From IMG/VR virus record IMGVR_UViG_3300009151_000374, positions 1-24,362 of that record: DNA of 24,362 bases, one strand, 5' to 3'. The DNA comes from a virus. Shown piece after piece: positions 2,790-24,267 of this stretch. Within the stretch, counting starts at the first letter, position 1. Each line of letters begins with the position of its first letter. The position numbers were made by a program, and so were the translations under genes. Below the pieces are notes generated by a model, which was not told the DNA's origin, did not search any database, and was given only the letters and a program-made list of their open reading frames with translations.

Positions 2790-2904
2790 CGTAATCTGGG
2801 TCTCCTGACGAATCATCGTCTATGTTAGGCAATAAGCAGCCACTACGCCCTGTTTCGGCAGGGTCCATGTTGTATTCTATTTCTTCTGGAAATGAGTTAC
2901 TCAT
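2773..2904 (-). CDS. Small acidic 43-aa ORF, unknown function
   Basis: A short reading frame fills the gap between the 1744-aa internal protein and the ATP-grasp gene. It encodes 43 residues beginning MSNSFPEEIEYNMDPAETG and ending DPDYDEATD, with 13 Asp/Glu residues. Its ATG overlaps the upstream TGA as ATGA, the junction type used repeatedly in this operon, and its stop lies 17 nt inside the chosen ATP-grasp start. The start at 2789 for the next gene is therefore also coupled to it. I do not recognise the sequence. Coupling and gap filling support a real gene, but it is short enough that this is a moderate call. Confidence 0.5.
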   Translation of the reverse strand: MSNSFPEEIEYNMDPAETGRSGCLLPNIDDDSSGDPDYDEATD

Positions 2905-10349: not shown

Positions 10350-10750
10350 GAAAAAGCCTTTCCGTAAGTTACATGAGGTTCACCTTGAAGATCTTTATAT
10401 CCTGTTTTAGCCATTATTCTAGCTTCTCCTGAATTAGGCTTAACAAATGATAATATGCAGGGACTACCATTGTCCCATGCCATTTTCTCTAAATGTGCAT
10501 AAAGTGCTTTTACTGCTTTAACCAAATCTTTAGATAATTTAAACATTGGATTAGTTGTAGTAAATTCTATTATAGATATGCCACCAATGACACAGTAAAG
10601 AAAACTGACTGCTATTGGATTACCATCAACTTCAGCAATAGCACCAGTTGCAGGTAAAAAAACTTCTGGTGGTATTACCGTAGCTCCATGACGTTCCATC
10701 CATGAACAGATCATGTTATAATCTTCTGAACTGTAAGATCTAATGGTCAT
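10334..10750 (-). CDS. GNAT-like acetyltransferase-fold protein (T7 gp13-like position), 138 aa
   Basis: The start (MTIRSYSSEDYNMICSWMERHG) and the layout (IAEVDGNPIAVSFLYCV, then the C-terminal ILSFVKPNSGEARIMAKTGY) match small GNAT-fold proteins found after tail-tube genes in podoviruses; T7 gp13 is also 138 aa in the same place. The C-terminal half with N-x2-x-AR-x-MAKTGY corresponds to the usual GNAT region where a helix packs after the cofactor site, but I do not see a clear Q/RxxGxG/A acetyl-CoA loop, so it may be structural, not catalytic. Its ATG overlaps the nozzle gene stop (ATGA), and its end overlaps the gp14-like gene. Confidence 0.72.
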   Translation of the reverse strand: MTIRSYSSEDYNMICSWMERHGATVIPPEVFLPATGAIAEVDGNPIAVSFLYCVIGGISIIEFTTTNPMFKLSKDLVKAVKALYAHLEKMAWDNGSPCILSFVKPNSGEARIMAKTGYKDLQGEPHVTYGKAFSCQWL

Positions 10751-13700
10751 GGCGTTGCTATTACATCGTACTTAATAATAAGTGCCAATACGGTCAACGG
10801 CAATGCGTCACTACCTGTAACTATTATTATAGGATCGGTATCAGGAGTAAGGTTTAATTGAGGGGTAACACGTATGTCTGTAGGTATAGTTACTAATAAT
10901 CCTTGTGCTTGTTGTGTAGGATCACCGTTTAAAGGGTTACCTGTAGGTACGTAAGGTATAGGTACAGGTTGGTAAGGAGCACCACCTATTAGTCTCCAAT
11001 TAGTAGGATCGTTGGAAGGAGGTACAATATCTGTATATACTGTAGCTACAGCCTGATAATTATAACCAAAGTAACTTACTTGGCTTCCTTTACCATAAGT
11101 TGTACCAGAAACCCAAGTATTAGGTGCTGGATACTTATTAGCTATTAAACCACCACAAGAGTTATAAACTCTAATAAATACGTCTGAGATCTGCTTTATA
11201 AGGCTTTGTGTATTGCCTACACGTTGATCTGAGTCGTAACGCATAGCTTGAGCAGAATAAGTAATAGGAAGCCCAACTTGTACTATGTTTGGTCCAACAT
11301 AATTAACTAATTTCCAGTTTGTTGGGTCTGATGATGGAGGCGTTGTAGTACCTGCTGGAATGTCATGCAACGCTTCATAATTGCCTAATCCTGATCCAGT
11401 ACCCCAACTTACTTGTATTCCAGTAGAATAAGGGAAACCAGACTGCCATAAAGGAGCTGCTGGTGGGTATCCAGAAGGTATAACTACTGTACCATAATCC
11501 GTATCTGTATAACCAACCTGTACAGGTCCAAAAGCATTACCATCTGCCAAACCGACTACCCAACGTCCTGCTAAGTTATTAAGGTTAGATAAAGTTACAC
11601 CAACAAGAGATGGGCCAGAAGTTATACCTGTTACGGTAAATCCGCTATCTACATAATAAGCATTTTTAACAATAGCCTGTGGTGGATTTGGAGCTGCTGT
11701 AAATGTTTGTTCCCAGTTGTTAGGATTGAACCTTTCAATAGATCTTACAGGTATTGTTTGCCAAGGAGCTAATTGCCAGTGCGTGGGATCTGCTCCTGGT
11801 AAAGTAGAACTGGTTACAGCAGCTATACATATATACGTATTATTAGCCGACCAAACCATGTCATTTACGGCATAAGTATTGCCATAATACCATATAGGAG
11901 GGCTGACGTATCGATTTGCTACCACCCATACTTCGTCATCGTTTTTACCGTTACCAAATAAAGTAGATACGGATTCAAAACCTACGTCTGGGTAATTACT
12001 ATCAGGAGTACTAGTATTAGCTCCAGTAGTATGGTTATGCCAACCAAATATGTTCTGATCCATTTCGTAGGTCATGCCACAAAGCTGTCCTTGTTGCGTT
12101 ACAGCCCAAATCTCTGGCTGACCATGCCATTGCTGCTGGTAGTCTAATTGAACGATTCCTGAGTTAAATAAATGACCACTATAGGTTGTTAGGCTTTGGC
12201 TCATGTATTTCTCAGTATAAACTGAGAACATCATCTGCCTGATTTGATTAGCCTGACGTTGAGTAAATATTATGCCATCGCCTACAACTAATGGTGTAAC
12301 ACCAAAGATAGAACCATAAGTAGAGTGTTCAACTGCCTGTATAGATGTTGGGCTTATGCTACCACCAATGCTACCACCTGTGGTTGCAGCACTACCTGAG
12401 ACTACCCATTCAGCACCAGAGAACCCTGCTATAAGGTTATTTTGAGCACACATCCAAACAATTGGTCCACGACCAACTGCGTTTAGATCAAATGCAAAAG
12501 AATCTGTAGCTAAAGTTTGATCACCTAAAGCAAAGTTTTCGATGTCGTTGGTGACTGTACCCCATATACGTTGAGGTTCGTAGGCAGACGAGGCGTATAT
12601 AACCCTCTGTTGATAAGAGGTGATTGCTTGCGGATATCCACGGTAGTCTGACCAAGCTCCTTCTGACCAATAAAGGGTGTTCGGTCCAGTAGGGGACCAG
12701 TTGCCAGTATTTTGCGGTGGGGGCGTTGATCCACCTGAGATTGCAAGTATGCAGGTATAGTTTTCTTCTTCATAGCTTACAATATCTCCAGCATGATAAA
12801 CTCCTGTTCCGCTTACCCAAGCAGTAGCTAAAGGAGCGTTGTTGTAAAGTTGTTGTATGACATTAGCACAAGCATGATTGCTATCATTAACAGCCCAATG
12901 CGTAGTATCAGTGGCTGGATTAGTAGCACTATTAACTGCAAGAATACAATAATACGTTACGCCACTGTACGTAACTTGCATATTAGGAATATAACTTACT
13001 GAACTATTCCAAGCATCAGGAGTACAAATTTGTACCAGTCCATATAAGAAACCATCTACTGCTTCCAATACGATACGTGGAGCAGTAGCACCAGCCGTAG
13101 ATGGAGATGTAGAAGTATTAACGTGTATTCTGAATAATGCACTTTGACTAGCTGTACCTGTAATATCTACGTTACGATCAGATTGACCAGAAATAGTCCT
13201 AATTGCAGTCCATGTAGAACCACCATCTATTGAACGCTCAATATCAAAAGAAGCGTTCCATACGCCATAAGTATGACATTCCCAATTTCCGTAAATTTGT
13301 ATCTGATTAGAATATCCACTTGCACCATAAGGAAATGCCGATGAAGGATTTGGTGCATCTATTTCAACTGATGCAGAACTACGCAACGTAGCTAACTGCC
13401 AATAAGAGTTTAAATGCGTTGGTTGAAATATAGTCTGTGATTTCCAATAAGTAGAATTAAACGAACTGCCACTTATATGAGCTGTAATGCAATTATAAAG
13501 TACGCTACCTATTTGTACTGAATTACCAATTGCGTAAAAGTTATTCGCTACCCATGCAGGAGCAGTAGCAGCAAGCCCTACCTTACCAAAATTAGATGTT
13601 GCTGATATACTAATTTCTGTAGCGTTCTGATCTAATAAAGCAGGAGTAATGAATTGTACTTGTGCAAACGTCCAATTTGTATCTGAAATTCGTGTAAGTT

Positions 13701-14160
13701 TATAAACTGGATATTTAGGACTAGTGAAATACATCACGTCATTTATCTGACAGTAGTTCACTTGCCATATATCAGTAGCAAATTTATTTACGTTTGCCGT
13801 AATATATTCTGCACTATAAGGTGTACTTACTTCTACTGGATTACCGCCTACTTGGATTTGCTGACCATTACTATAAAAACGAATGTAATTGTTACCTAAT
13901 TCTAAAATAAAAGTAGTTGTAGGACTGTATATAAACTTAACAAGTCTTACGCCATACGAGGTACTATAACCATTTTTTAGTTTTGCTGCTGCTATGTATT
14001 GAGTGCCAGGTCTGCGTGTTAATGGTCCCTGCTTGTAAGGGATCATGTTTAGCAATTGCCGTCCTGCTGAACGGTATTTTTCTTGGTCAACTCGTGCGTC
14101 TAGTCTTGGACTAAACTCACCACCAGAAAAACTAATTTGGCTGTCAATTGATTTAGCCAT
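10747..14160 (-). CDS. Tail nozzle / tail tubular protein B-like, 1137 aa, with six CBM5/12-like modules
   Basis: The N-terminus (AKSIDSQISFSGGEFSPRL, then RLLNMIPYKQGPLTRRPGTQY) is the typical opening of the podovirus tail tubular B/nozzle family, which closes the tail tip. I start at ATG 14160; a TTG 24 nt upstream is also in frame. The start overlaps the adaptor stop by 8 nt. Six copies of a module with the pattern W-x5-7-Y-x2-G/N-x2-V-x-Y/W-x5-Y-x-C/A-...-P-x3-D-x-x-x-W are inserted at residues about 198-243, 378-425, 442-490, 752-800, 898-952 and 1010-1059. They resemble CBM5/12 carbohydrate-binding domains and explain why the protein is much longer than T7 gp12 (about 800 aa). The modules probably project from the nozzle and may bind host surface sugars; binding is inference. 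The gene ends overlapping the GNAT-like start. Confidence 0.85.
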   Translation of the reverse strand: MAKSIDSQISFSGGEFSPRLDARVDQEKYRSAGRQLLNMIPYKQGPLTRRPGTQYIAAAKLKNGYSTSYGVRLVKFIYSPTTTFILELGNNYIRFYSNGQQIQVGGNPVEVSTPYSAEYITANVNKFATDIWQVNYCQINDVMYFTSPKYPVYKLTRISDTNWTFAQVQFITPALLDQNATEISISATSNFGKVGLAATAPAWVANNFYAIGNSVQIGSVLYNCITAHISGSSFNSTYWKSQTIFQPTHLNSYWQLATLRSSASVEIDAPNPSSAFPYGASGYSNQIQIYGNWECHTYGVWNASFDIERSIDGGSTWTAIRTISGQSDRNVDITGTASQSALFRIHVNTSTSPSTAGATAPRIVLEAVDGFLYGLVQICTPDAWNSSVSYIPNMQVTYSGVTYYCILAVNSATNPATDTTHWAVNDSNHACANVIQQLYNNAPLATAWVSGTGVYHAGDIVSYEEENYTCILAISGGSTPPPQNTGNWSPTGPNTLYWSEGAWSDYRGYPQAITSYQQRVIYASSAYEPQRIWGTVTNDIENFALGDQTLATDSFAFDLNAVGRGPIVWMCAQNNLIAGFSGAEWVVSGSAATTGGSIGGSISPTSIQAVEHSTYGSIFGVTPLVVGDGIIFTQRQANQIRQMMFSVYTEKYMSQSLTTYSGHLFNSGIVQLDYQQQWHGQPEIWAVTQQGQLCGMTYEMDQNIFGWHNHTTGANTSTPDSNYPDVGFESVSTLFGNGKNDDEVWVVANRYVSPPIWYYGNTYAVNDMVWSANNTYICIAAVTSSTLPGADPTHWQLAPWQTIPVRSIERFNPNNWEQTFTAAPNPPQAIVKNAYYVDSGFTVTGITSGPSLVGVTLSNLNNLAGRWVVGLADGNAFGPVQVGYTDTDYGTVVIPSGYPPAAPLWQSGFPYSTGIQVSWGTGSGLGNYEALHDIPAGTTTPPSSDPTNWKLVNYVGPNIVQVGLPITYSAQAMRYDSDQRVGNTQSLIKQISDVFIRVYNSCGGLIANKYPAPNTWVSGTTYGKGSQVSYFGYNYQAVATVYTDIVPPSNDPTNWRLIGGAPYQPVPIPYVPTGNPLNGDPTQQAQGLLVTIPTDIRVTPQLNLTPDTDPIIIVTGSDALPLTVLALIIKYDVIATP
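10982..13565 (-). repeat. Six divergent copies of a CBM5/12-like module within the nozzle gene
   Basis: Approximate copies on the DNA are 13431-13565, 12885-13025, 12690-12835, 11760-11905, 11305-11465 and 10982-11130. Each encodes 43-55 residues starting with a Trp (AWVANN, AWNSSV, AWVSGTG, IWYYGN, LWQSGF, TWVSGT) and ending with a second Trp (YWKSQ, HWAVN, NWSPT, HWQLA, NWKLV, NWRLI). Copies 2 and 3 are nearly adjacent; the others are separated by nozzle sequence. They are protein-level repeats and have diverged at DNA level. Confidence 0.75.
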
Positions 14161-14998
14161 TGATGAAATACCAACGTGCTGCAACGAAACGTGAAGAATT
14201 TACAGGAGTAAAACGTACTGGTAATCTTTCGCCAGCGTTTTTGGTCATAGCTTGAGATAAAGCTCTTTGATATATTGCAAGCATTGCTTGTTCAATTTTA
14301 CCGCCATCTTGACGAAGTGATGTAGAAATCTGTGAAGCTAATTTATAGGTTACGCAATCTATAAACAAAGGGTCCCAACGAGTAGTATCTTGATTATTTG
14401 AAACGTACTTAATTGAAGTAGTTGATGTGTTTGTATAAATTAATTGACCATTAATTTCATACTCATCTGAGTTCATATTACCATAAGTTTCACTGCTTGA
14501 TCCATCATTTACTGTATCCAATAATATGAAATCGTTAGGTAAAGCGAAAGCATAAGGCCAGCCACTAGGATAACTTGAGCCATCAGGATAACCTCCAAAG
14601 GCATTGTAGTCTGGGTAGTCGGCTTGAACAAGAGCACCAGTTGTAAGATCGTTAGTAAAACTACCTGTCGAAGTGTAAGCGTACTCAGTAGTATAAATGG
14701 CGTTGCCATAAGATAAATAAACATTCGCTGCATACGAAGTATAAGGCGACCAAGGTATTGATGCAGGTGTTCCTCCATTAGAAGGAAGCGGAGTTTGTGG
14801 AACTTGAACTAATACCGCAGTAGTAAGTAAACAATTCCAACGAGTAGCACGAGCTACTGTTTCAAACGCTAACTGAAAATTGTTATTACAAACAATCGCC
14901 GACGGATTGCTTAGATCGGTAAGTGAGACAATTGATTGTGCTCCTATTCTTGATAACGCTTGGTTAGCAATGTCCGTAGGTGATAATGTTGTAAACAT
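14153..14998 (-). CDS. Tail adaptor / tail tubular protein A-like, 281 aa
   Basis: The start, SPTDIANQALSRIGAQSIVSL, followed by NNNFQLAFETVARATRWNCLL, is the usual opening of podovirus tail tubular A/head-tail adaptor proteins, which sit between portal and nozzle. The C-terminal half also fits: YAFALPNDFILLDTVND, IKYVSNNQDTTRWDPLF, and YKLASQISTSLRQ with a final helix for ring assembly. Residues about 78-129 are an Tyr-rich insertion beginning PWSPYTSYAANVYLSYGNA that looks like a degenerate copy of the CBM5/12-like module in the nozzle. The ATG is only 7 nt after the T-tract of a terminator and has no Shine-Dalgarno, so the message probably comes from read-through. Its end overlaps the nozzle start. 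Confidence 0.85.
   Translation of the reverse strand: MFTTLSPTDIANQALSRIGAQSIVSLTDLSNPSAIVCNNNFQLAFETVARATRWNCLLTTAVLVQVPQTPLPSNGGTPASIPWSPYTSYAANVYLSYGNAIYTTEYAYTSTGSFTNDLTTGALVQADYPDYNAFGGYPDGSSYPSGWPYAFALPNDFILLDTVNDGSSSETYGNMNSDEYEINGQLIYTNTSTTSIKYVSNNQDTTRWDPLFIDCVTYKLASQISTSLRQDGGKIEQAMLAIYQRALSQAMTKNAGERLPVRFTPVNSSRFVAARWYFING
14612..14765 (-). repeat. Degenerate CBM5/12-like module inside the tail adaptor
   Basis: The encoded segment keeps the first Trp (PWSPYTSY), the central V-x-L-x-Y-G-N-x-x-Y and Ser/Thr-rich turn, but lacks the Y-x-C and the clear closing Trp. It is the weakest of the copies. Confidence 0.45.
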
Positions 14999-15005
14999 AT
15001 AAAGT

Positions 15006-15046
15006 AAAAAACCCGATAGTCACGTCGCCACAACGCAACTATCGGG
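15006..15046 (-). terminator. Rho-independent terminator between decoration and adaptor genes
   Basis: On the minus strand CCCGATAGT (15046-15038) pairs perfectly with ACTATCGGG (15020-15012) and is followed at once by six T (15011-15006). The 17-nt loop can add a GTTG/CGAC inner pairing. It lies downstream of the capsid and decoration genes, the place where T7 has its partial terminator T-phi. Since the adaptor ATG begins 7 nt later with no room for a promoter, some read-through is expected. Confidence 0.88.
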
Positions 15047-15078
15047 CAGGTTTTAATTACGTCAAACCACTAACCCAA

Positions 15079-15786
15079 TTAGTTGTTATCAACAATCTCG
15101 AAGCGGAACACACTGACTGTTCCTGCAACTGGACTGCCAATAGTAGCAACTAGTGCTTGTAACCAGCAATCTTCAGACACGAGGTATGGAGCGTATAACG
15201 CTGTACCAGTTGCTGTAGATACGTTACCGCTTGCAGCAGCACAGTTGATAGCTGTCGAATAGCGTACTGAATTTGCGATCCAGTATGTTGTATCCGAGTG
15301 TGGAGCTGTCGTCTGTGAACTAGTTGTAGCTTTGATACAGGTGTATGTTTGGTTCGCAGGACTTGAAGTTGCGTCCAATACAATCTGACCAACTGCGTAA
15401 ACAGTACCAGAAACCCAAGTTGGTGCTTGGATAACAGTTAATGAATTAGCTGCTGTTTGACCATTTGGGATCGGCAGGTTTGATGCCAAGCCTTGATCGT
15501 TATCACCGATAGCTAACGTTAATGTTGTTGCAGGGGCTGTTGTGCCACTGGAAACACGTCCGTTAGGATCAATCATTGCACCAGAAGGTATGATAGCAAT
15601 GTTGATTAGGTCGTATTGTGCTTCATTACCTGTCCATGTATATGTTGCGGTAATTTTGCCTGGACCTTCAAGAATAGGATTATTCTGTACGCCTGGCTGA
15701 GGGGTCATCATTGTCTGACCTGCTTGGCCTGGGAAGTTAACCCCTTGAATTTGATTAGACGCTACGTCTGTATAATAGATAGCCAT
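15079..15786 (-). CDS. Capsid-associated (decoration-type) protein with inserted CBM5/12-like module, 235 aa
   Basis: The body of the protein, KITATYTWTGNEAQYDLINIAIIP... with PSGAMIDPNGRV and a final beta-rich domain (YAPYLVSEDCWLQALVATIG), resembles small structural proteins encoded directly after the capsid gene in BPP-1-like and related podoviruses. Between its two halves, residues about 119-172, sits a complete CBM5/12-like module (APTWVSGTVYAVGQIVLD to HSDTTYWIANS) with Y-T-C. The start has a good site, AGGAGA, 9 nt upstream. The gene follows the capsid gene by 24 nt and ends just before a terminator, so capsid and this protein are likely co-transcribed at high level. A surface position on the head would display the module outward; that is inference. 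Confidence 0.75.
   Translation of the reverse strand: MAIYYTDVASNQIQGVNFPGQAGQTMMTPQPGVQNNPILEGPGKITATYTWTGNEAQYDLINIAIIPSGAMIDPNGRVSSGTTAPATTLTLAIGDNDQGLASNLPIPNGQTAANSLTVIQAPTWVSGTVYAVGQIVLDATSSPANQTYTCIKATTSSQTTAPHSDTTYWIANSVRYSTAINCAAASGNVSTATGTALYAPYLVSEDCWLQALVATIGSPVAGTVSVFRFEIVDNN
15270..15430 (-). repeat. CBM5/12-like module in the decoration-type protein
   Basis: The segment shows WVSGTVYAVGQIV, Y-T-C-I-K-A and a closing YW after a His-Ser-Asp turn. At DNA level 17 nt at its start (15404-15420, plus strand gtaccagaaacccaagt) are identical to the start of nozzle copy six (11102-11118). Confidence 0.7.
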
Positions 15787-15810
15787 GTTAGTTGTCTCCT
15801 ATGTTAAGGG

Positions 15811-16725
15811 TTAAACTGATTCGTCGCAATTGACTTGGACGACACCCTTTTCTTCTAGGCGAGTCGCATCCATTAAAAGTGCAGTACGCACTTGAATTGC
15901 ATGAGATTGCATTGGAAGAATATCGATGTGAGTACGTACATCTTCGCCTATACCCATGATTAAGAAATCTTTTTGGTAAGCTACGCAGGTACGGATTGTT
16001 GTTGAACCAGCTTGGTAAGGAACCAACTGAGTACGAACGAAATGGAAGCCCATAAAGTCACGGATCATACCGTCACGTAGAGCACGCACGTCGTTATAGA
16101 GTACGCTATTAACTTGATCAACATTTGTGATTAAGTTGTTTAATTGCTTTGCAGAATAAACAAATACACGACCCTCTTCTTTAACATCATTAGCATCCAT
16201 AACGTAGGATGTCTGAGTTAATTTAGCGAGTTGCAGACCTGAGTTTGCAGAGCCTGATCCATAAGTAACACCAACTTGCTGTGAGGAAGGCAGCGTTGTA
16301 GCTGTTGTTCCTTGAGCACCAGTATAGTTTGTGCCTAATAGAGCATTGATAAGAATGATATCCTTCTGTCTGTTAGCAGCAATAGCGTGTTGCTTTGCTG
16401 TTGGAGACTGTGGGTCAGGTAGCTGACCAAGAAGGATATGATCAAAGTAGTCAATCCAAGTGGTCTTATCGTAAGGGCGAGGACGCACCCAACGGAAGAA
16501 CGTAGGAATGTCAGATGGTTCACTTTTTTGAGCACGAGCAGTGATCTGACGCAGAGCGTAAGATTGATCACCGATTTGATCGTATCTCTTTTGGTTACCA
16601 TTTACATTGTCTGAAGTGTACATCCCTGCGAGACGGTGATCGACTTGTTGGGCCATGATTTCACGCCAAATGTCGTCGAACGCTGTCTCGTAATGGGGAG
16701 GTAGTGAGAATATTGCACCAGCCAT
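15811..16725 (-). CDS. Major capsid protein, 304 aa
   Basis: The sequence MAGAIFSLPPHYETAFDDIW, then MAQQVDHRLAGMYTSDNVNG and YDQIGDQSYALRQITARAQ, fits the phage capsid family of BPP-1/HMO-2011-like podoviruses (HK97-type fold; I believe pfam19821). Later parts also fit: TTWIDYFDHILLGQLPDPQS, AIAANRQKDIILINALLGTN, and the C-terminal VRTHIDILPMQSHAIQVRTA. The frame is open back to an ATG at 16812 (333 aa), but I prefer ATG 16725: it matches the expected N-terminus, and a sigma70-like promoter at 16770-16798 would start the transcript between the two codons. Neither start has a clear ribosome-binding site, and the upstream ATG lies inside a hairpin. It ends NCDESV and is followed after 24 nt by the decoration gene. 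Confidence 0.87.
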   Translation of the reverse strand: MAGAIFSLPPHYETAFDDIWREIMAQQVDHRLAGMYTSDNVNGNQKRYDQIGDQSYALRQITARAQKSEPSDIPTFFRWVRPRPYDKTTWIDYFDHILLGQLPDPQSPTAKQHAIAANRQKDIILINALLGTNYTGAQGTTATTLPSSQQVGVTYGSGSANSGLQLAKLTQTSYVMDANDVKEEGRVFVYSAKQLNNLITNVDQVNSVLYNDVRALRDGMIRDFMGFHFVRTQLVPYQAGSTTIRTCVAYQKDFLIMGIGEDVRTHIDILPMQSHAIQVRTALLMDATRLEEKGVVQVNCDESV

Positions 16726-16769
16726 GAGAGTATGAGAATTGAGGTTTAATACGGCGATATACCGTACTG

Positions 16770-16798
16770 ATTGTACGTTCGCTCCTCGGTTGTCCCAA
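16770..16798 (-). promoter_or_regulatory. Candidate sigma70-type promoter for the capsid gene
   Basis: Minus strand TTGGGA (16798-16793, 4 of 6 to TTGACA), 17-nt spacer, TACAAT (16775-16770, 5 of 6 to TATAAT). It lies between an upstream terminator and the capsid ATG at 16725, which would leave a leader of roughly 35-40 nt. Confidence 0.5.
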
Positions 16799-16805
16799 AA
16801 GGGAT

Positions 16806-16839
16806 CGATCATCGAACACTATTGTTCGACAAGTGATCG
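16806..16839. promoter_or_regulatory. Nested dyad upstream of the capsid promoter (operator-like or leader hairpin)
   Basis: Outer arms CGATCA/TGATCG (16806-16811, 16834-16839) and inner arms CGAACA/TGTTCG (16813-16818, 16823-16828) around a 4-nt loop. It ends 8 nt upstream of the candidate -35 box, a position suited to a regulator. If transcribed from further upstream it would fold as an RNA hairpin covering the ATG at 16812. Confidence 0.45.
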
Positions 16840-16880
16840 GGTCAGCTTTCGCTGGTTCTCCTCTGTTTGTCTATGGGCAT

Positions 16881-16910
16881 AAAAAAGCACCTGACGGTTA
16901 AGTCAAGTGC
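16881..16910 (-). terminator. Rho-independent terminator upstream of the capsid gene
   Basis: Minus strand GCACTTGAC (16910-16902), loop TTAACC, GTCAGGTGC (16895-16887), then six T (16886-16881). The 9-bp stem has one G:T pair. It ends the transcript of the genes from spike to the small surface protein. Confidence 0.9.
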
Positions 16911-16934
16911 TTAGTCTATAAACTATAATTAGTC

Positions 16935-17333
16935 TTAGGTAAGAGCTGTAGTACGACTTGCTTCATTCCAAGTTGTGCCGTCAGAACAGAATGTAACTAG
17001 TATAATTTTTGATGCTGTACCTGTTACTGTGCCTGTTGTGCGGAAACCAGTTGAGAACGTAATTGTACGTGCTCCACCAGAATCATTGTTAATTTGTATA
17101 ACTAAACGTGCTCCAGCCTGTGGGACGTATGCTGCCGTCAAGGTAGCATTGCCTACTGCTGAAGTTGTGTTGATAGCAATAAAACGAGTTGTCTGTAAAT
17201 AAGGTGCAAGCTCGATTGATGATGCATAAGTAGGAGTGATACCAGTTCCTGATACACCGCCTACGGTTACTCCAGATCCTGTAACTTGTGCTACGAAATC
17301 TGGGTTTGGTGAAAATGCTGTATTTTGTGCCAT
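16935..17333 (-). CDS. Small beta-rich putative capsid surface protein, 132 aa
   Basis: The protein is Thr/Gly/Ser/Val-rich with alternating hydrophobics and no charge clusters. Its second half, ARLVIQINNDSGGARTITF followed by GTASKIILVTFCSDGTTWNEASRT, has the pattern of a short beta-sandwich repeat common in phage decoration and fibre proteins (turn N-D-S/G-G, then F-x-x-DGTTW-x-E-x-SR). Placed between a GroES-like gene and the capsid gene and ending before a terminator, it could decorate the head or be a fibre cap. I see no ribosome-binding site at ATG 17333. Function is inferred, with low certainty beyond structural. Confidence 0.65.
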   Translation of the reverse strand: MAQNTAFSPNPDFVAQVTGSGVTVGGVSGTGITPTYASSIELAPYLQTTRFIAINTTSAVGNATLTAAYVPQAGARLVIQINNDSGGARTITFSTGFRTTGTVTGTASKIILVTFCSDGTTWNEASRTTALT

Positions 17334-17355
17334 GATGTAAGTTGGGGGACGAGGG

Positions 17356-17664
17356 CTAACTTAGGAGAGCTTCAGGTATTGTCAATGCTTCACCTTCAAG
17401 AACACCATTGATGTCTCGTAAACGACCACAGATAAACATATTACCTTCGTAAATAAATTTCTCACCCCATGATTCTGAGACATGAATAATGCTACCGATA
17501 GGAGCCATTTCTTGTGCTAATGGACCAGAACCAACAACAACACATTTAAAATGTGTACGTAAGGCTTGCTGATAGTTTGGTGGAATTATCAGCAGTCCTT
17601 GCTTGTTAGTTTCTTCTACTGGTCTTGCTATTAAGTTATCTTTTAAAGGACGTGGGATTTTCAT
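17356..17664 (-). CDS. GroES-like co-chaperonin, 102 aa
   Basis: Length and order of elements match GroES/Cpn10: the start RPLKDNLIARPVEETNKQGL parallels the bacterial RPLHDRVIVKR...ETKSAGG stretch; a mobile-loop-like segment follows with hydrophobic residues LLII (about 24-27) where GroES has IVL for docking on GroEL; then FKCVVVGSGPL parallels GEVLAVGNG, and PIGSIIHVSESWGEKFIYEG parallels the VGDIVIF...G region. The end GRLRDINGVLEGEAL is longer than the usual ending. GroES proteins cap the chaperonin ring; phage versions such as T4 gp31 help fold the capsid protein. Lying between scaffold and capsid genes fits that role. The start overlaps the scaffold stop as TAATG. I am fairly sure of the fold; partnership with host GroEL is inferred. 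Confidence 0.8.
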   Translation of the reverse strand: MKIPRPLKDNLIARPVEETNKQGLLIIPPNYQQALRTHFKCVVVGSGPLAQEMAPIGSIIHVSESWGEKFIYEGNMFICGRLRDINGVLEGEALTIPEALLS

Positions 17665-18656
17665 TATTTAAGTCCTCTTTGTCCTGCTTCAAGCATCAAA
17701 CTTTGATAACGTGCTTTAGCTGTTTTATTGTTAGGGTGTGAGCCATTAGTTAATGCTTCATTTAAAGGATGTGCTTTATTATGTAGCATATCACGAGCTT
17801 CTGCTAGTGGGTTAGTACCACCTGATGACTTAGCTTCACCTGATACAAATTTATCTTCCATAGTAGTCATAGCATGACGCATAGCCATTAAGAAAACATT
17901 ACTGTTTTTCATTAATGTTTGATGCTCTGGATTATTCATATCCAGACCTAAACGCATAGCACCACGTTCTGCCATCTCTTGTGCTTTGGTTAATGGAATG
18001 TTCTCGTTACGTAAAGTTGCTTCTAGGTTCTTTTGCTGAGTAGAAAAGAAATTCTTTTCATACTCTGCTTGTGATGCAACTTGCTTTTGAAGTTCTGCGG
18101 TCTGTAAGGCTACTAAATCTTTTAGCATCTGTGGAGATGCAGAATACTTATGAGCAATTTCTGCTGCACCTTTAGCCAGCGTATCATTCCAAAGTTCATT
18201 GGCTAGGTTTTCTGGTTTGGTGATGCCATAGTCTTTGGGATCTTTCGGCACTCCGTTTATTGAATCGAGAAGTGCTTTACGTTCCGCTATAACTTCAGGT
18301 GCAGCATTAGCTGGAAGTGGTGCAAGACCTTTCTTGCCAGCTAAAGTTTGCTGATTAGCCATCACTGTTAATACATCATCAAACGTCTTTTGACGTGATA
18401 GTGTATTCTTAAGTGATGTGTGATGATCAGGTAAATTATCTAATGCTTTATGGTTTAGTGTACCATCAGCGTTAATAAAGCTCTTATAAAATGGTTCTTT
18501 AACAGCAGATGTGGCGGTCTGTGTTGCAGGAGCAGTTTGATTAAGTGCAGGTATGTTTGCTTCTACTGGTGTAGGAGCAAGATTCAAGGCAGGTGCAGAT
18601 CCACCAGCAGGTGCATCACCTGTTATGGAATCATACAGTGGCGTGTGTGGGATCAT
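17664..18656 (-). CDS. Scaffold-like capsid assembly protein, 330 aa
   Basis: It has an Ala/Pro/Thr-rich disordered N-terminus (to about residue 55), a middle part with EPFYKSFINADGTLNHKAL and LPDHHTSLKNTLSRQKTFDD, then PKDPKDYGITKPENLANELW, and long helices from about 155 to 255. The pattern -FINADGT-, -LPDHH-, -PKDPKDYG- is the one I know from scaffolding proteins of BPP-1-like and related podoviruses. These shape the procapsid and leave before or during DNA packing. The C-terminus (NPLAEARDMLHNKAHPLNEA, then YQSLMLEAGQRGLK) is basic, as expected for a coat-binding tail. The ATG overlaps the upstream stop (ATGA), and the stop overlaps the GroES-like start. Confidence 0.78.
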   Translation of the reverse strand: MIPHTPLYDSITGDAPAGGSAPALNLAPTPVEANIPALNQTAPATQTATSAVKEPFYKSFINADGTLNHKALDNLPDHHTSLKNTLSRQKTFDDVLTVMANQQTLAGKKGLAPLPANAAPEVIAERKALLDSINGVPKDPKDYGITKPENLANELWNDTLAKGAAEIAHKYSASPQMLKDLVALQTAELQKQVASQAEYEKNFFSTQQKNLEATLRNENIPLTKAQEMAERGAMRLGLDMNNPEHQTLMKNSNVFLMAMRHAMTTMEDKFVSGEAKSSGGTNPLAEARDMLHNKAHPLNEALTNGSHPNNKTAKARYQSLMLEAGQRGLK

Positions 18657-18853
18657 TTGGTTTTAACAACAGGTGCTACTTCAGTATTATTTTCTTCACG
18701 TTCTGCATACATAGCTTGAGCAAGTTTAAATGCCATAGCTGAACAATCTGCATAATCTTGTTCACGAGAGAAATCAAACTTCTCACGAAATGCTACCATA
18801 GCAGCTATTGCTGCATCATCTATAAATTTTACTTTTTCGGTGTTAGAACTCAT
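18653..18853 (-). CDS. Small helical protein, 66 aa, unknown
   Basis: It encodes a mostly helical, acidic protein (FIDDAAIAAMVAFREKFDFS, then DYADCSAMAFKLAQAMYAE) ending VAPVVKTK, without membrane or signal segments. Both ends overlap neighbours as ATGA, so it is translated in step with the 212-aa gene and the scaffold-like gene. I do not recognise it. Its place suggests an assembly role. Confidence 0.7.
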   Translation of the reverse strand: MSSNTEKVKFIDDAAIAAMVAFREKFDFSREQDYADCSAMAFKLAQAMYAEREENNTEVAPVVKTK

Positions 18854-19488
18854 AAATCATCATCTCCGTCTGTTATTGTGTTTTCTCCAACGATTTCGTC
18901 TTTAGTAAATACTAAAGAACATTTACGAGATCCAATTAACTGATTATCAAGTGTGACTACTTGCATCTCATAGTTGATTGCACCTGTGCTCCAGGTCTTT
19001 GCACCCTGCTGAATCTTTTCAAGATTATTATCGTCTGCTGTATTACGGTCATCACGGATAACAGGAATCATACGCTTTACTGTAGCTCTACGTGGTTCGC
19101 CTTCATTATCTACTAACACACCAAAGCGTGCGTAGAACTGTTGTGGCTTATACTTTAATTCCCAAGCGTTCCATACTGGATCATCTTCACCAAGTAACTT
19201 GTTACGCTTTGGTGCAGGAGGAGTGTTAGGTTTAACTACATCACGCTTCTCACCTTTAATACTAATCTCTTTGATTTTACGTTCAGATACCTGACGACCA
19301 TCGCCAATAGTACCAATTAACACAGAAATACGTTGACCATGTTTAGCTGAGATTTCTTTTGATTCGTATTCAATATGACCAGTATCTTGATCATAGGTAG
19401 CTAAGAGGGTTTGTTTACCTCTGCGATTGTTTACTATTCTTCCATCTTCCAAGAGTTCAAACTCTGGAGTAGTTGTGGCATCTGACAT
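18850..19488 (-). CDS. Conserved-position protein, 212 aa, unknown
   Basis: I do not recognise this protein. It is hydrophilic and charged. The N-terminal part (FELLEDGRIVNNRRGKQTLL, GHIEYESKEISAKHGQRISV) looks beta-rich; a Pro/Lys linker (KPNTPPAPKRNK) is near residue 90; the second part has WELKYKPQQFYARFGVLVDN and RMIPVIRDDRN; the end is strongly acidic (TDGDDDL). It starts 4 nt after the 106-aa gene, with AAAAGG as ribosome-binding site, and overlaps the 66-aa gene. Between portal and scaffold it is likely a head-assembly or virion protein, which is inference. Confidence 0.7.
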   Translation of the reverse strand: MSDATTTPEFELLEDGRIVNNRRGKQTLLATYDQDTGHIEYESKEISAKHGQRISVLIGTIGDGRQVSERKIKEISIKGEKRDVVKPNTPPAPKRNKLLGEDDPVWNAWELKYKPQQFYARFGVLVDNEGEPRRATVKRMIPVIRDDRNTADDNNLEKIQQGAKTWSTGAINYEMQVVTLDNQLIGSRKCSLVFTKDEIVGENTITDGDDDL

Positions 19489-19491
19489 ATT

Positions 19492-19812
19492 TTACCTTTT
19501 GGTTATGGGTTGTGGCTTTGTTTCTTTTAACTTCTGAGAAAGTTCAATCTGTCTATCAATAACACGTATTGGTATTGATGCACCATCACGGTGTGCTGCT
19601 GCTAACGCTATTTTATAACCGTCGGCTTCTTGGAATATAAAACATGGTCCTGTTTCACCTGCACATTTCCTAAGATGCTCAATGACATCTTTCTGAGCTT
19701 GGGAACGTGACGTTGGTAATCCAAAGACTTGTAAGAAAGAATCTGCAACTCTTCCTTGTTCAATTCTTGATTGTACAAGGGAATCTGTTTGTTCAACTGT
19801 GGCTTTTGGCAT
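19492..19812 (-). CDS. Small head-module protein (Bbp19-like?), 106 aa
   Basis: The middle portion, VADSFLQVFGLPTSRSQAQKD and VIEHLRKCAG, then an aromatic segment FIFQEADGYKIALAAAHRDG, resembles small proteins encoded next to the portal in BPP-1-like phages (BPP-1 Bbp19 type: a VF-x-T/L...LR-x-C start and a closing RDG/GRRD motif). That match is from memory and loose. The tail is basic (QKLKETKPQPITKR). It starts 8 nt after the portal stop. Role unknown. Confidence 0.6.
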   Translation of the reverse strand: MPKATVEQTDSLVQSRIEQGRVADSFLQVFGLPTSRSQAQKDVIEHLRKCAGETGPCFIFQEADGYKIALAAAHRDGASIPIRVIDRQIELSQKLKETKPQPITKR

Positions 19813-19820
19813 TATTGGGT

Positions 19821-21509
19821 TTATTGCTGCATGGCGTTCTTAGCAGCATCTTGTACGAAATCAGGTGAACCACCTAATCCCTTACCAGCTTTACCAAGTT
19901 GTTCAGCAGCTTGGAGAGCTTGTTGTTGCTGTTGTAACTTCATGCGTTGTTGACGTATTGCTGCAACGGAACGTTCATCTCGGAATAAATCTGCGTTCAT
20001 TCCTGAGTTCATGGCGTAGTTCCGCATCATTTTATCTAAATCAAAATTGTCTGCTACCTCTGGCTTAAATTGCATAATAGGTTGCAAGAACTGCATTGCT
20101 TGTTCTGTTCCACGATTCTGCAATGCCTTAAGTGCAAGGCTAATTCTGCTGGTAATTGTAATCTCTGGTAAAACTAAACCTTTAGAATTAACACCAGAAT
20201 CTACCATAAGTGAGTCTGGAGCTTGTCCAAACTTACCTTGACGATAAAGAATACCAAATACCCTACGCAGTAATGGGTTTAAAAACTCGGTTACACGACG
20301 ATCAAATACAGGTGTAAATTGTTCTAACTTCTCTGCAAGACGTTGTGAGATTTCGTATGCAGTCATCTTCTTGTCGATGAGTGGATCAGATCCTAACATC
20401 TTAAACATATTAACAAAGAAAGCATCATTGATCATGTCTTTCTTGTTAGCGATTAACTCCATGCCCATTTTGTAATCACCAATCGTAGCCCATTCTACTG
20501 GTCTGCCGTTTGGTTCGTTGATGTCCCAAGTAGTTACACCACCTGCTCGTAAATCAACGTCACCATCTAGATTTGATGGCACTAGGATACGTGGGTATGC
20601 TTTTAGTTCTGCTAAAGCATCTGTGTATTGTGTGATGTAATTGATCTGACGTACATCAGGTAATGCTAAATAAGCAGGTGAATATCCCCAAGGTGCATCT
20701 GTACCCCACTTAGAAAAGCGACTGCAAAGATACGGCATCTCATCGTAACCACTAACACGCACACACTGACTGAAATCAACTGAGATATAAACTGAAGCGA
20801 TAGGTTTATTAGCACCATCTTGTCTCTCAGGTAATCTTGAAGAATCTTCTCTAGGAAATACTGCGTGTACAAACTTATAATCACGATCCATTCCCTTACC
20901 ACCTTTAAGAGCATTTTGCATCTTTTCAGGCAAACTCTCTTCACCAAACATTTGTATTGCCTGACGACCTGTTAACTTAAATTCACGACGTACTGTATCA
21001 ACAATACCTTCGTCATTTTCTTCGATAGTGTATGTGCCTACTTTTGTATTTCTAAAATTGAGTGAACTTGATTTACCTTCTTCACAAAAAATACAATCAG
21101 TACCAAAGATGCCTACGTGAAGATAACCAATGTTAACTACAGAATAAAAGTTAGAACGTGCTAACTCCTGCATGGTAATATCTGAACATCTACCTAACCA
21201 AATAGCAGCGTCATCACCTTCCTGACGTAATGGCATCGGTGGTTCAAATTGTGCCCATGGTTCACTTGATGGTGTTAACCAATTACGCTGACCAGCAGCC
21301 ATAGTTTGTGCTGCTAAGATTGCTGTCGTATCAAAAATGCGGTCTGTCCAGCCTGTAATTCCTTCTGTCTTTGTTACATTGATGTCAGACTCTTGAGGTA
21401 AAAAGTATTGTGAGATCGTTTGCCAATCAGAATCAAATGTAGCTGAACGCTTAGAACGTGCAGATTCGTACTTGTTTAGCTGCTCCTTGGCTAATAGATC
21501 TGTTGCCAT
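19821..21509 (-). CDS. Portal / head-to-tail connector protein, 562 aa
   Basis: The N-terminus LNKYESARSKRSATFDSDW, ISQYFLPQES, and RIFDTTAILAAQTMAAGQRN followed by LTPSSEPWAQF are hallmarks of the podovirus head-tail connector family (pfam12236). Next are WLGRCSDITMQELARSNFY, the cluster GIFGTDCIFCEEG, and further on TDAPWGYSPAYLALPDVRQI and the helical crown region. The C-terminus is Gln-rich (RMKLQQQQQALQAAEQ) and ends NAMQQ. Length is normal for the family. Twelve copies form the ring through which DNA enters and leaves. It starts 3 nt after the 76-aa gene. Confidence 0.93.
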   Translation of the reverse strand: MATDLLAKEQLNKYESARSKRSATFDSDWQTISQYFLPQESDINVTKTEGITGWTDRIFDTTAILAAQTMAAGQRNWLTPSSEPWAQFEPPMPLRQEGDDAAIWLGRCSDITMQELARSNFYSVVNIGYLHVGIFGTDCIFCEEGKSSSLNFRNTKVGTYTIEENDEGIVDTVRREFKLTGRQAIQMFGEESLPEKMQNALKGGKGMDRDYKFVHAVFPREDSSRLPERQDGANKPIASVYISVDFSQCVRVSGYDEMPYLCSRFSKWGTDAPWGYSPAYLALPDVRQINYITQYTDALAELKAYPRILVPSNLDGDVDLRAGGVTTWDINEPNGRPVEWATIGDYKMGMELIANKKDMINDAFFVNMFKMLGSDPLIDKKMTAYEISQRLAEKLEQFTPVFDRRVTEFLNPLLRRVFGILYRQGKFGQAPDSLMVDSGVNSKGLVLPEITITSRISLALKALQNRGTEQAMQFLQPIMQFKPEVADNFDLDKMMRNYAMNSGMNADLFRDERSVAAIRQQRMKLQQQQQALQAAEQLGKAGKGLGGSPDFVQDAAKNAMQQ

Positions 21510-21512
21510 ATA

Positions 21513-21743
21513 TTATCCGAGCTTAGAAGTCGTTGGAGTAGCACCAGAACTGTTACTTCCCATACCCTTGTAACCGCCAGTATCACCTGCAAAAACAGTC
21601 TTTTTGATAGATTTCTTCATCAAATTCTGTTGTGCAATGTCTTGCTGTGCTTGCATAACTTCAGCCGATGATGCCGTGACAGGTGGTGCAGCCACTGGAG
21701 TTGGTGCTGCTTGTATTGCTGCTGCTGGAGATCCGCCACCCAT
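21513..21743 (-). CDS. Small Ala/Pro-rich phage protein, 76 aa
   Basis: It begins MGGGSPAAAIQAAPTPVAAP and continues with an Ala/Gln helix (AEVMQAQQDIAQQNLMKKS) and a Gly/Ser/Thr-rich end finishing TTSKLG. Short proteins of this design (MGGGS/MCGGS start, Pro-rich middle, KxLLG-like end) are often found beside the portal gene in podoviruses; their role is not known. It lies between the 122-aa gene (5-nt gap) and the portal (3-nt gap). Confidence 0.72.
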   Translation of the reverse strand: MGGGSPAAAIQAAPTPVAAPPVTASSAEVMQAQQDIAQQNLMKKSIKKTVFAGDTGGYKGMGSNSSGATPTTSKLG

Positions 21744-21748
21744 AATAG

Positions 21749-22117
21749 TTAATTGGTTAAAATTTCGGCTAAACGTTGTAAATCTTCGGTTTTATACAAT
21801 CTAAGCTCTCTTTTATTGTCAATAATCCGTTCAAAAGCAATGTAAGGGAGTGGAAATGGCATAGAACTAAAGGCTTTTGATACATTTCCAGCCATTGCAA
21901 ACACATACCAACAATCAGAATCTTGTGGGTCAAAGACGTGTTCGCAGTCCACAATCTCGTTTGGTGGTGCTAAACGACGGCAATTTTTACCCATAACAAA
22001 GTATTCTGGCGTTGAATAAACAAAACCATACCTAAAAAACCAGTCAACGTAGTCACCAAAAGATACTCCTTGTGGTAAATCGATATACTTTTGTGCTATT
22101 GTTTCGTAAGGACTCAT
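21749..22117 (-). CDS. Portal-adjacent conserved protein, 122 aa, unknown function
   Basis: A soluble protein rich in aromatics and Cys: QGVSFGDYVDWFFRYGFVYS, MGKNCRRLAPPNEIVDCEH, DSDCWYVFAMAGN, then PYIAFERIIDNKRELRLYK. The central CW-x-V-FAMAGN and PLPYIAFER segments recall small proteins encoded just before the portal in other podoviruses, for which I know no function. The ATG shares one base with the spike stop (TGATG), so the two are coupled. Five Cys residues are notable but no clear metal site is seen. Confidence 0.72.
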   Translation of the reverse strand: MSPYETIAQKYIDLPQGVSFGDYVDWFFRYGFVYSTPEYFVMGKNCRRLAPPNEIVDCEHVFDPQDSDCWYVFAMAGNVSKAFSSMPFPLPYIAFERIIDNKRELRLYKTEDLQRLAEILTN

Positions 22118-24267
22118 CAGAAATACGTAGATGTATCTGTTGTAGGTGGATTGCTTGTGCCGTAAAATAGTAAATTAGAACCGTGTCCTGCAACCCTAGT
22201 AGATCCATTGACGCCGCTATTTAAAAACTGTGTAGCGTGTGTCTGACCCCATAGCGTGTTAGATGCTACAATGATTGCTGTAAGAGCTGTTGAGCTAGGA
22301 CCGCCATCAATTGTTATGCCATATTGAGCGTTGTTGCTGTAAGCATAGTTATTCCAGAACTCATTACATGATGATGAGCCTGTTAGTCTAAATCCATCAG
22401 AAGTTAGGCTGCTGTCTGAATAAACGTAATAAAACGAAGATGCTGGTGTAACGCTAAATGGGTTGGCTGCTGCTAGAACATTGTTGATAGATACACCAGG
22501 GAATCTGATAGCCCAGATACCACCTAGTCCTAAATAGCCATCACCATTACCTACTATTGTACCGCCAGTAATACTTACACGTCCTTGTGTAGCATTAATA
22601 CCCATCATCAAGATACCAACTCTGCCGTAGTCTGCGTAGTTATTATCAAGCAGTATGCCTTCTAAGCTACCTGATCCTGGTGTACCATCTAACAATAGTC
22701 CTGCTGATATAGGATCGGTAGGATAGCCCACTGCACCAAATTGATTATTGGCTAGAATAGACTCGTTGAAATATCCACCAGCCGTATCAATAATAACGCA
22801 AGCTGGAATGGTTGATACATATCCATAGCCTACTGTGCCTGTGCCTGACGATGGTGCTGCGTAAAATGCTGTTGTGCCAAATGCTTTAGCTATAACTGTT
22901 GTACTTGTTACGGATGTAATAAGAAAAAATCCGTTATACCCTGCCGTAGTCATATTACGTGATACTATAAAACTATTAGCATAAAACCCTGTGGTGCTAG
23001 CCATAGTAAACGTAATGTTAGTACCGTCTGACGTAATAGCTGTTGGGTTGTATTGATAACGTGGTCCACCACCAGCAAATCCATTATTTACGTATTGGTT
23101 ACTTGTAGAACCACCAGTAACGTACACGCAAGGTTTGCCGTTATACGTTCTAAATAAATTGTTAGTTACTTGTGCTGCTGTGCCTATAAGTTGTAAAGCG
23201 TAACCAGACAAAGGATTACTACTAGCTACTGACCAATGAGTGCTATCTGCTGGAGGTACAGGATTACCAGAACTACCTGCAATAATTGTAGTACATGTAT
23301 ATGTAACATTGTTATACACTGTTTGTGAACCTACACCGTAACCGTACAACGGATTCCAAAGACCAGCAGAATTGATTTGTATGTAGCAGTTAGTAACAGA
23401 ACAAAAAGGTGATACACCACTTATCTTTATGCCGTCTCCTGTGATAGCTGCGTTGATATTATCTAACCATACATTACCACCACCTGATACATTGATAATT
23501 GGGTAGCCAGCAACACGTACAGCATTGGTTTGAATGTATAGGTCTTTAATTGTAAGTCCTACATTAGAACTAGAGAATACTATGTTAGTAGTACCGCTAG
23601 AGAATATCTTTGTACCGTTAGGACCATCACCACGTATGCAAATAGAGTTGGTTGCACAACTCACTGTGCCATTAATAATGTAAGCAGATGACTGAGATGG
23701 AAAGTATAACGAAGCAAAACTAGGTAAAGATGCTATTAAAGTGTTTAAGGCAGATGTTTGGTCTGTAGATCCGTCTGCTATAATGCCGTAATCTAGTACG
23801 TTGTAGCTAGGACCATTCACCCATACAGGTGCTGCTGATGCTGATCCTGTTCCTGTTTGTGCATGATATTGTCTGCGTGTAGTAGTATTACCAGCTAAAC
23901 GAGTAGCTGTACCTGATGTACCACCATAAATGCTATCACCCAATGTAGTCATTGGGTTGGTAAGTGTACTGATGCTCGTATTAGTTGCTGATGTTATCTG
24001 ACCTTGTGCATTAACAGCGATTACTGGAACTGTTGTAGATGATCCGTATGTGTTAGCAGTAACACCTGTTGTGTTTAAATATACACTTACATTACCTGTT
24101 GTAGGACTAGCACCAACGCCAACTGATCCAGTAACGCTAGTAACTGGCCCTGTACCTCCACCTGATGCGGTTGTACCTGTAGCTGGCGTGTTGTCAGGCT
24201 TACTACCACCAGCAGTACGATCTGTGGATTTTGTGTTACCTGTATTGCTTGTAAAATAAGTAGCCAT
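22117..24267 (-). CDS. Tail spike with pectate-lyase-type beta-helix and one CBM5/12-like module, 716 aa
   Basis: Residues about 1-150 are Gly/Ser/Thr-rich with phage fibre phrases (VPVIAVNAQGQITSATNT; MTTLGDSIYGGTSGTATRLA). At 154-172 is NVLDYGIIADGSTDQTSAL, the entry motif of right-handed parallel beta-helix spikes (pectate_lyase_3 type), followed by Asn/Gly/Val-rich coils (IRGDGPNGTKI, SVTNCYIQINS) to the end. Such trimeric spikes bind and often cut host polysaccharide; I cannot point to catalytic acids. A CBM5/12-like module interrupts the helix at about 302-347 (AGLWNPLYGYGVGSQ to DSTHWSVAS). The gene lies ahead of the portal, at the other end of the module from the tail fibre, so the phage probably has two receptor-binding proteins. 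The ATG overlaps the upstream stop (TAATG), and its stop overlaps the 122-aa start. Confidence 0.85.
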   Translation of the reverse strand: MATYFTSNTGNTKSTDRTAGGSKPDNTPATGTTASGGGTGPVTSVTGSVGVGASPTTGNVSVYLNTTGVTANTYGSSTTVPVIAVNAQGQITSATNTSISTLTNPMTTLGDSIYGGTSGTATRLAGNTTTRRQYHAQTGTGSASAAPVWVNGPSYNVLDYGIIADGSTDQTSALNTLIASLPSFASLYFPSQSSAYIINGTVSCATNSICIRGDGPNGTKIFSSGTTNIVFSSSNVGLTIKDLYIQTNAVRVAGYPIINVSGGGNVWLDNINAAITGDGIKISGVSPFCSVTNCYIQINSAGLWNPLYGYGVGSQTVYNNVTYTCTTIIAGSSGNPVPPADSTHWSVASSNPLSGYALQLIGTAAQVTNNLFRTYNGKPCVYVTGGSTSNQYVNNGFAGGGPRYQYNPTAITSDGTNITFTMASTTGFYANSFIVSRNMTTAGYNGFFLITSVTSTTVIAKAFGTTAFYAAPSSGTGTVGYGYVSTIPACVIIDTAGGYFNESILANNQFGAVGYPTDPISAGLLLDGTPGSGSLEGILLDNNYADYGRVGILMMGINATQGRVSITGGTIVGNGDGYLGLGGIWAIRFPGVSINNVLAAANPFSVTPASSFYYVYSDSSLTSDGFRLTGSSSCNEFWNNYAYSNNAQYGITIDGGPSSTALTAIIVASNTLWGQTHATQFLNSGVNGSTRVAGHGSNLLFYGTSNPPTTDTSTYF
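23225..23365 (-). repeat. CBM5/12-like module inside the tail spike
   Basis: The segment has LWNPLYGYGVGSQTVYNN, Y-T-C and a closing HW after PPADST, and sits between two beta-helix coils, so it may loop out of the helix. Confidence 0.65.

Follow-up and report, generated by a model that had tools for sequence, protein, structure and literature searches.

The IMG/VR record IMGVR_UViG_3300009151_000374, 24,362 bp in length and analysed here in its entirety as "the window", is part of the genome of an uncultured podovirus in which a single family of small domains recurs in four virion proteins. Six copies lie in the tail nozzle (N1-N6), one in a 235-aa protein encoded beside the gene of the major capsid protein (MCP; D1), one in the tail spike (S1) and a degenerate one in the head-tail adaptor (A1). 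That these modules belong to the carbohydrate-binding module 5/12 superfamily (CBM5/12; PF02839) is well supported, and on balance we lean towards a multivalent glycan-adhesion coat on the outward-facing proteins as the reading that most reasonably fits our observations. A preliminary description of the window had counted eight copies as good and one as degenerate between positions 10982 and 23365. The outer module limits that we obtain (N6 start 10984, S1 end 23367) agree with this span, and the count is borne out by profile scores, shuffled controls and orthologous adaptors. Its claim that the same family had been added to several virion proteins is likewise confirmed, in the protein at the head-shell position, the adaptor, the nozzle and the spike.

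The hidden Markov model (HMM) used for recognition was built from the six nozzle copies only, and its scores were compared with those obtained when the protein in question was shuffled 1000 times. D1 scored 38.9 bits and S1 22.7 bits, and in neither case was the score beaten by any of the shuffles (0/1000). A1 reached 1.0 bit, a value equalled or beaten by 90 of the 1000 shuffles and not significant alone, and 7.2 bits once the nozzle-only HMM had been enriched from relatives (0/200 shuffles). Orthologous adaptors from the loci of our survey (labels beginning with L) carry clear modules at residues 83-126, in register with residues 82-119 of the window adaptor, which score 30.3 (L029), 29.1 (L087), 25.6 (L068) and 19.5 bits (L069) with the nozzle-only HMM, and we therefore accept A1 as a degenerate copy that has decayed in the window lineage. 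The L029 adaptor also exceeds the Pfam CBM_5_12 cut-off (28.4 vs 26.2 bits), and the adaptors of L068 (4272-5321) and L072 (2063-3100), 346-350 aa long, hold two modules in tandem. Two other signals, a weak half-module in the spike (residues ~146-160) and a further stretch of the adaptor (residues ~185-210), were taken as noise.

The window copies are 19-48% identical to one another and hardly similar as DNA, the only match being one of 17 bases between D1 and N6, which rules out recent tandem duplication or any recent burst of duplication. A chance or low-complexity likeness among Thr/Ser/Pro-rich segments, with no shared module behind it, might be suspected as individual copies fall under the Pfam cut-off. 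We give this next to no credence, as it is ruled out for the eight good copies by the shuffles, and the match to a solved chitin-binding domain spans that domain in full, the borders of the insertions are clean and the six nozzle copies share the same strand pattern.

That solved domain is the chitin-binding domain of chitinase A1 (ChiA1; 1ed7), which the module profile matches at E=2.2e-7 with residues 1-45 of 45 covered; weaker matches are to chitin deacetylases, the phage tail spike 8fqc, the putative phage tail fiber 9rkv and the F2-pyocin fiber 25vf. The Pfam model CBM_5_12 recognises the nozzle protein at E=1.8e-16 (60.3 bits vs a cut-off of 26.2). Taken singly, seven of the eight modules match it at E<=1 (best 5.9e-6), each alone under the curated cut-off, and the Pfam scan misses D1 (E=0.06) and S1, so that the family is recognised only in the nozzle. 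When residues are assigned the roles defined for ChiA1 (PMC3701571), the fold-core positions W656, Y662, Y675 and W696 are retained in all eight good window copies and V668 in seven of them, position 677 is C or A, and position 670 is variable. Furthermore, all six modules of the nozzle as modelled by AlphaFold show an identical order of strands by DSSP, the only property compared, in agreement with the family's small beta fold of three- and two-stranded sheets, five of them at fair-to-good confidence and N2 at poor confidence. Homology to CBM5/12, as first proposed from the sequence, is thus upheld by the full-length match and the kept core residues. Neither outcome that would have spoken against the earlier proposal was seen, the six nozzle copies having one predicted fold pattern in common and insertion-free forms existing for all four proteins.

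The body of the nozzle is homologous to solved podovirus nozzles by both sequence and predicted fold. A profile of 37 nozzles scores 660 bits against the Carin-1 tail nozzle 8ck1, and the AlphaFold model (predicted local distance difference test score, pLDDT, 79.2; predicted template modelling score, pTM, 0.73) has 8ck1 as its best Foldseek match (E=5.6e-45); relatives begin at Met9 of the window's TTG-started reading. The modules lie in loops between strands of their host proteins, as inserted domains. Alignment of the 37 nozzles defines eight discrete sites (a, b and N1-N6) that are occupied or empty by lineage, with six modules down to none per nozzle, and module-free forms of 590-860 aa are common. 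The N1 site is common to the other module-bearing lineages examined, save the single-module L112/L117 type, and N2 is limited to the clade of the window and L007-L010 and cleanly missing from L011-L017 and L021-L025. The nozzles of L011-L017, phages whose MCPs are 94% identical to that of the window, are without N2, N5 and N6, the borders being clean, and have an additional module after window residue 117. This position, site a, holds a Laminin_G_3 domain of the concanavalin-like lectin superfamily in the L035 nozzle (L035:9974-13111) and E1_FCCH domains in the distant nozzles of L135 (8001-11081), L140 and L142, and therefore behaves as a plug-in site, a general docking place that extends to distant nozzles. 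The names E1_FCCH and GLEYA/VWFA also turn up among viral fold matches. A second type of insert, with the pattern GNF..G..Y.I.SIGTTDFTL.GA..NT.G..F.AT..GTGTGTA, was seen at nozzle insertion sites in L021-L025 (site a) and in the L068 nozzle.

Relatives without the module exist for all four proteins, in keeping with insertion. Adaptors of 188-210 aa lack the module segment, the same is true of four proteins of 154-211 aa related to the 235-aa protein, and the spike of L024, 44% identical to the window spike, is without S1 and has a module of its own at residues 558-601 that the window spike lacks. The survey took in ~130 loci, partly redundant, and its counts are of distinct proteins, with partial proteins and redundant contigs included. 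Modules were found in 26 of 30 capsid-neighbour proteins, 34 of 88 nozzles, 5 of 10 spikes and 6 of 60 adaptors, the adaptor figure missing decayed copies. None was present in the MCPs (0/66), portals (0/56), scaffold-position proteins (0/23) or ejection and internal proteins (0/41, in groups of 11, 13 and 17) surveyed, and no module was found in Carin-1, BPP-1, BcepC6B, vir555 or ct8d5349, which have the same gene order.

For 80 modules another clade offers a counterpart at the same site, and 63 of these are closest to that counterpart, from which it follows that several of the insertions are old. The clade-specific copies are nearest to modules at other sites, N2 to N4, N5 to N3 and the L069 module at site b to N1. 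Exchange of whole alleles is seen as well. The DNA of L010 and L011 is 96% identical flanking the nozzle and 68-76% identical inside it (L010:3339-6743 vs L011:7748-10864), and L008 and L024 show a similar break in identity at the nozzle interior; to judge by these breaks, near-identical phages exchange the interior of the nozzle as an allele. Alleles of the 235-aa protein, 63-98% identical, are similarly reassorted against MCPs that are 93-100% identical. The view that the modules were built up by repeated insertion therefore stands in so far as copies have been gained repeatedly, and needs widening, since losses and allele exchange contribute too.

Little-function promiscuous insertion has been argued for some phage Ig-like domains, and recombination that again and again copies a small, tolerated domain into the loops of virion proteins could likewise account for the resemblance of clade-specific copies to modules at other sites, for the frequent gain and loss and for the decay of the adaptor copy in the window clade. 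We consider such near-neutral spread improbable, since the fold core has been held across an old divergence between the window copies, the module is retained in most of the D-type proteins surveyed and it is strictly absent from all other structural proteins in the survey.

The adhesion reading draws on the restriction of the modules to four proteins, the optional and exchangeable nature of their sites, the lectin-superfamily domain found at one and the same site, and the precedent of the lactococcal 936 siphophages. CBM5/12-superfamily domains of ~45 residues, interchangeable with one another, have been inserted into loops of the nozzle, the head-shell-position protein, the adaptor and the spike, where they are gained, lost and swapped by site and by allele against a capsid and portal that hardly change. 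We propose that each module would make a weak contact with a surface glycan, and the many copies on each particle would provide avidity, holding the particle on the host capsule, lipopolysaccharide or exopolysaccharide as the spike engages its receptor. With 6 nozzle chains and 12 adaptor chains in the solved LME-1 complex, the window particle would by homology have 36 modules on its nozzle and 12 remnants on its adaptor. We infer that the modules are exposed on the surface, bind glycans and act through avidity, and that the 235-aa protein has its place on the head. A wider version of this proposal, which we put forward tentatively and with less conviction than the coat itself, would have one CBM5/12-derived fold serve as an all-purpose plug-in adhesin whose ligand site is non-canonical, present on head shell, collar, nozzle and spike at once; recombination would exchange it, independently of the capsid lineage, as a glycan-recognition coat that evolves fast.

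Several observations weigh against a glycan-adhesion coat, among them the state of the known ligand site. In ChiA1 this site consists of surface Trp687, the main contact to chitin (PMC3701571, PMC2265269), together with His681, Thr682, Pro689 and Pro693. All 3 enzyme reference domains have W at the Trp687 position; it is T, F, V or S in the modules, the tryptophan being absent from 63 of the 63 scored, and the His681 equivalent is mostly lost across them. As to the head, it is gene position that makes the 235-aa protein a probable cement or decoration protein. Its AlphaFold model, built from eight near relatives, has a pLDDT of 33.6; comparison with BPP-1 Bbp16, the Carin-1 cement protein and the capsid-neighbour proteins of vir555 and Manatee Spring gave no link (hhalign probability 0.1-1.3%); profile searches of the PDB gave no relative; and tblastn in 50,697 phage records gave no link to known capsid-neighbour proteins. 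The earlier naming of a decoration-type protein thus holds for the module that it carries, and for its role insofar as gene position indicates one. Finally, a search of GTDB genomes with the MCP profile for a host gave no relative.

Because Trp687 is gone from every scored copy, the binding of chitin and related sugars known from CBM5/12 domains, which the preliminary description had extended to these modules, cannot be transferred to them. The fold has been inherited without the classical chitin site, and classical chitin binding is not supported by the residues found. Attachment to chitin, cellulose or mucin, which would hold the phage on particles and is in line with the particle and mucus adhesion raised in the preliminary description, accordingly seems to us very unlikely, even though the closest solved relatives are chitinase and chitin-deacetylase domains and the Pro689 equivalent is retained in 47 of 63 modules. 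Any sugar that the modules bind is probably held in a way different from that in which ChiA1 binds chitin. The loss of the known ligand residue also keeps viable the main rival to adhesion, a structural role in which the inserts brace adjoining subunits or stiffen loops as a stable spacer fold without binding sugar. Conservation of the core residues where the ligand Trp is lost would fit this role, as would the age and site conservation of the N1, N3, adaptor and D1 sites. We nevertheless regard it as unlikely, because sites come and go between nozzles that are 66-72% identical, spike modules sit at differing places in related spikes and L035 has a lectin-like domain, unrelated to the modules, at one of the sites.

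The window (Table 1) has its main genes all on the minus strand, in the order spike, 122-aa protein, portal, small proteins, scaffold-position protein, GroES-like protein, 132-aa protein, MCP, 235-aa protein, adaptor, nozzle, 138-aa protein, internal virion proteins and fibre. This is the gene order of Bordetella phage BPP-1, Burkholderia phage BcepC6B and Cobetia phage Carin-1, in the last of which structurally validated cement, connector and nozzle proteins come after the MCP as they do here. By their family matches the identities of the portal (PF12236, E=1.4e-111), MCP, nozzle and adaptor are firm; the adaptor profile also matches the Carin-1 connector 8ck1_E, and the relatives of the MCP, at ~30% identity, are from Pelagibacter and other podoviruses. 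Three further genes, all on the minus strand, may be mentioned. A 102-aa GroES/Cpn10-like protein (17356-17664), whose gene is flanked by those of the scaffold-position protein and the 132-aa protein, scores 17.0 bits with PF00166, under the cut-off of 21.1. A 525-aa protein (1239-2816) within the virion gene block looks ATP-grasp-like by eye and has a weak match to phrog_839, and a Pfam search gave no match. A probable ejection protein of 1744 aa (2901-8135) had no match in family searches.

Table 1. Module-bearing virion proteins, their modules and the MCP gene in the window (window positions; every host protein lies on the minus strand)
Feature	Position	Strand	Evidence or remark
Tail spike, 716 aa, pectate-lyase-like	22117..24267	-	PF12708 E=8.8e-7, above cut-off
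Module S1, spike residues 301-349	23221..23367	-	22.7 bits, nozzle-only HMM
MCP, module-free reference gene	15811..16812	-	PF19821 E=1e-48
Capsid-neighbour protein, 235 aa	15079..15786	-	Gene directly after MCP, like Carin-1 gp42 cement protein
Module D1, 235-aa protein residues 121-173	15268..15426	-	38.9 bits, nozzle-only HMM
Head-tail adaptor, 281 aa	14153..14998	-	phrog_394 E=1.7e-37
Degenerate module A1, adaptor residues 80-122	14633..14761	-	Clear module at orthologous site in relatives
Tail nozzle (T7 gp12 / tail tubular B type), 1145 aa, TTG start	10747..14184	-	phrog_376 E=4.4e-113
Module N1, nozzle residues 208-252	13429..13563	-	Nozzle alignment, model
Module N2, nozzle residues 389-434	12883..13020	-	Model confidence low (41-52)
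Module N3, nozzle residues 453-500	12685..12828	-	Nozzle alignment, model
Module N4, nozzle residues 762-807	11764..11901	-	Missing from L029, L068, L069, L071
Module N5, nozzle residues 910-961	11302..11457	-	Limited to window/L007-L010 clade
Module N6, nozzle residues 1021-1067	10984..11124	-	Missing from L011-L017

Virions decorated with CBMs and CBM5/12 domains in phage spikes are already known. The closest parallel is that of the lactococcal 936 siphophages, which carry CBMs on neck, tail tube and Dit, two of which bind host cells in green fluorescent protein (GFP) assays, with only 1 of 113 phages having all three types of decoration (Hayes et al. 2019, PMC6669499). As in the window lineage, these CBMs are optional, occur in several structural proteins of one virion and vary between close relatives, and the avidity through copy number proposed for them is the same idea that we propose here (PMC6669499). 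They differ in being BppA-like and in belonging to a siphophage, whereas the window podovirus uses a small CBM5/12 family, with up to six copies per polypeptide, in its nozzle, adaptor, spike and capsid-neighbour protein. Compared with the chitin-binding domain 1ed7, the modules share a full-length profile match, the core aromatics and a similar strand order, and differ in the replacement of Trp687 in all those scored and in residing in virion proteins instead of a chitinase. The nozzle body resembles those of Carin-1, LME-1 and T7 (8ck1, 9efk, 6r21) by profile and predicted fold, unlike which it is ~300 residues longer and holds six inserted modules. Promiscuous phage Ig-like domains and T4 Hoc are likewise small domains reused on virion proteins, for which a part in adhesion has been proposed; they have another fold, and the window modules sit in internal loops and are not mainly appended or strung together as in Hoc fibres. 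A search of the literature for a CBM in a tail nozzle returned none, which is weak evidence as it covered open papers only.

What is new is that, in a podovirus lineage, one small CBM5/12-derived family occurs on four proteins, namely the nozzle, the adaptor, the spike and the neighbour of the capsid gene, together with up to six module copies per nozzle chain and a clear turnover site by site. The sugar-binding decorations on record come for the most part from long-tailed phages that infect Gram-positive bacteria, and the lineage described here is short-tailed. It would have a single small domain family on all external parts of the particle, the nozzle included, although the nozzle is usually regarded as a passive channel for DNA. 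With at least eight optional docking sites and an exchanged, modular interior, adhesion becomes a plausible second role of the nozzle. Furthermore, the presence and absence of modules among these phages form a natural series that could be used to relate module content to host range.

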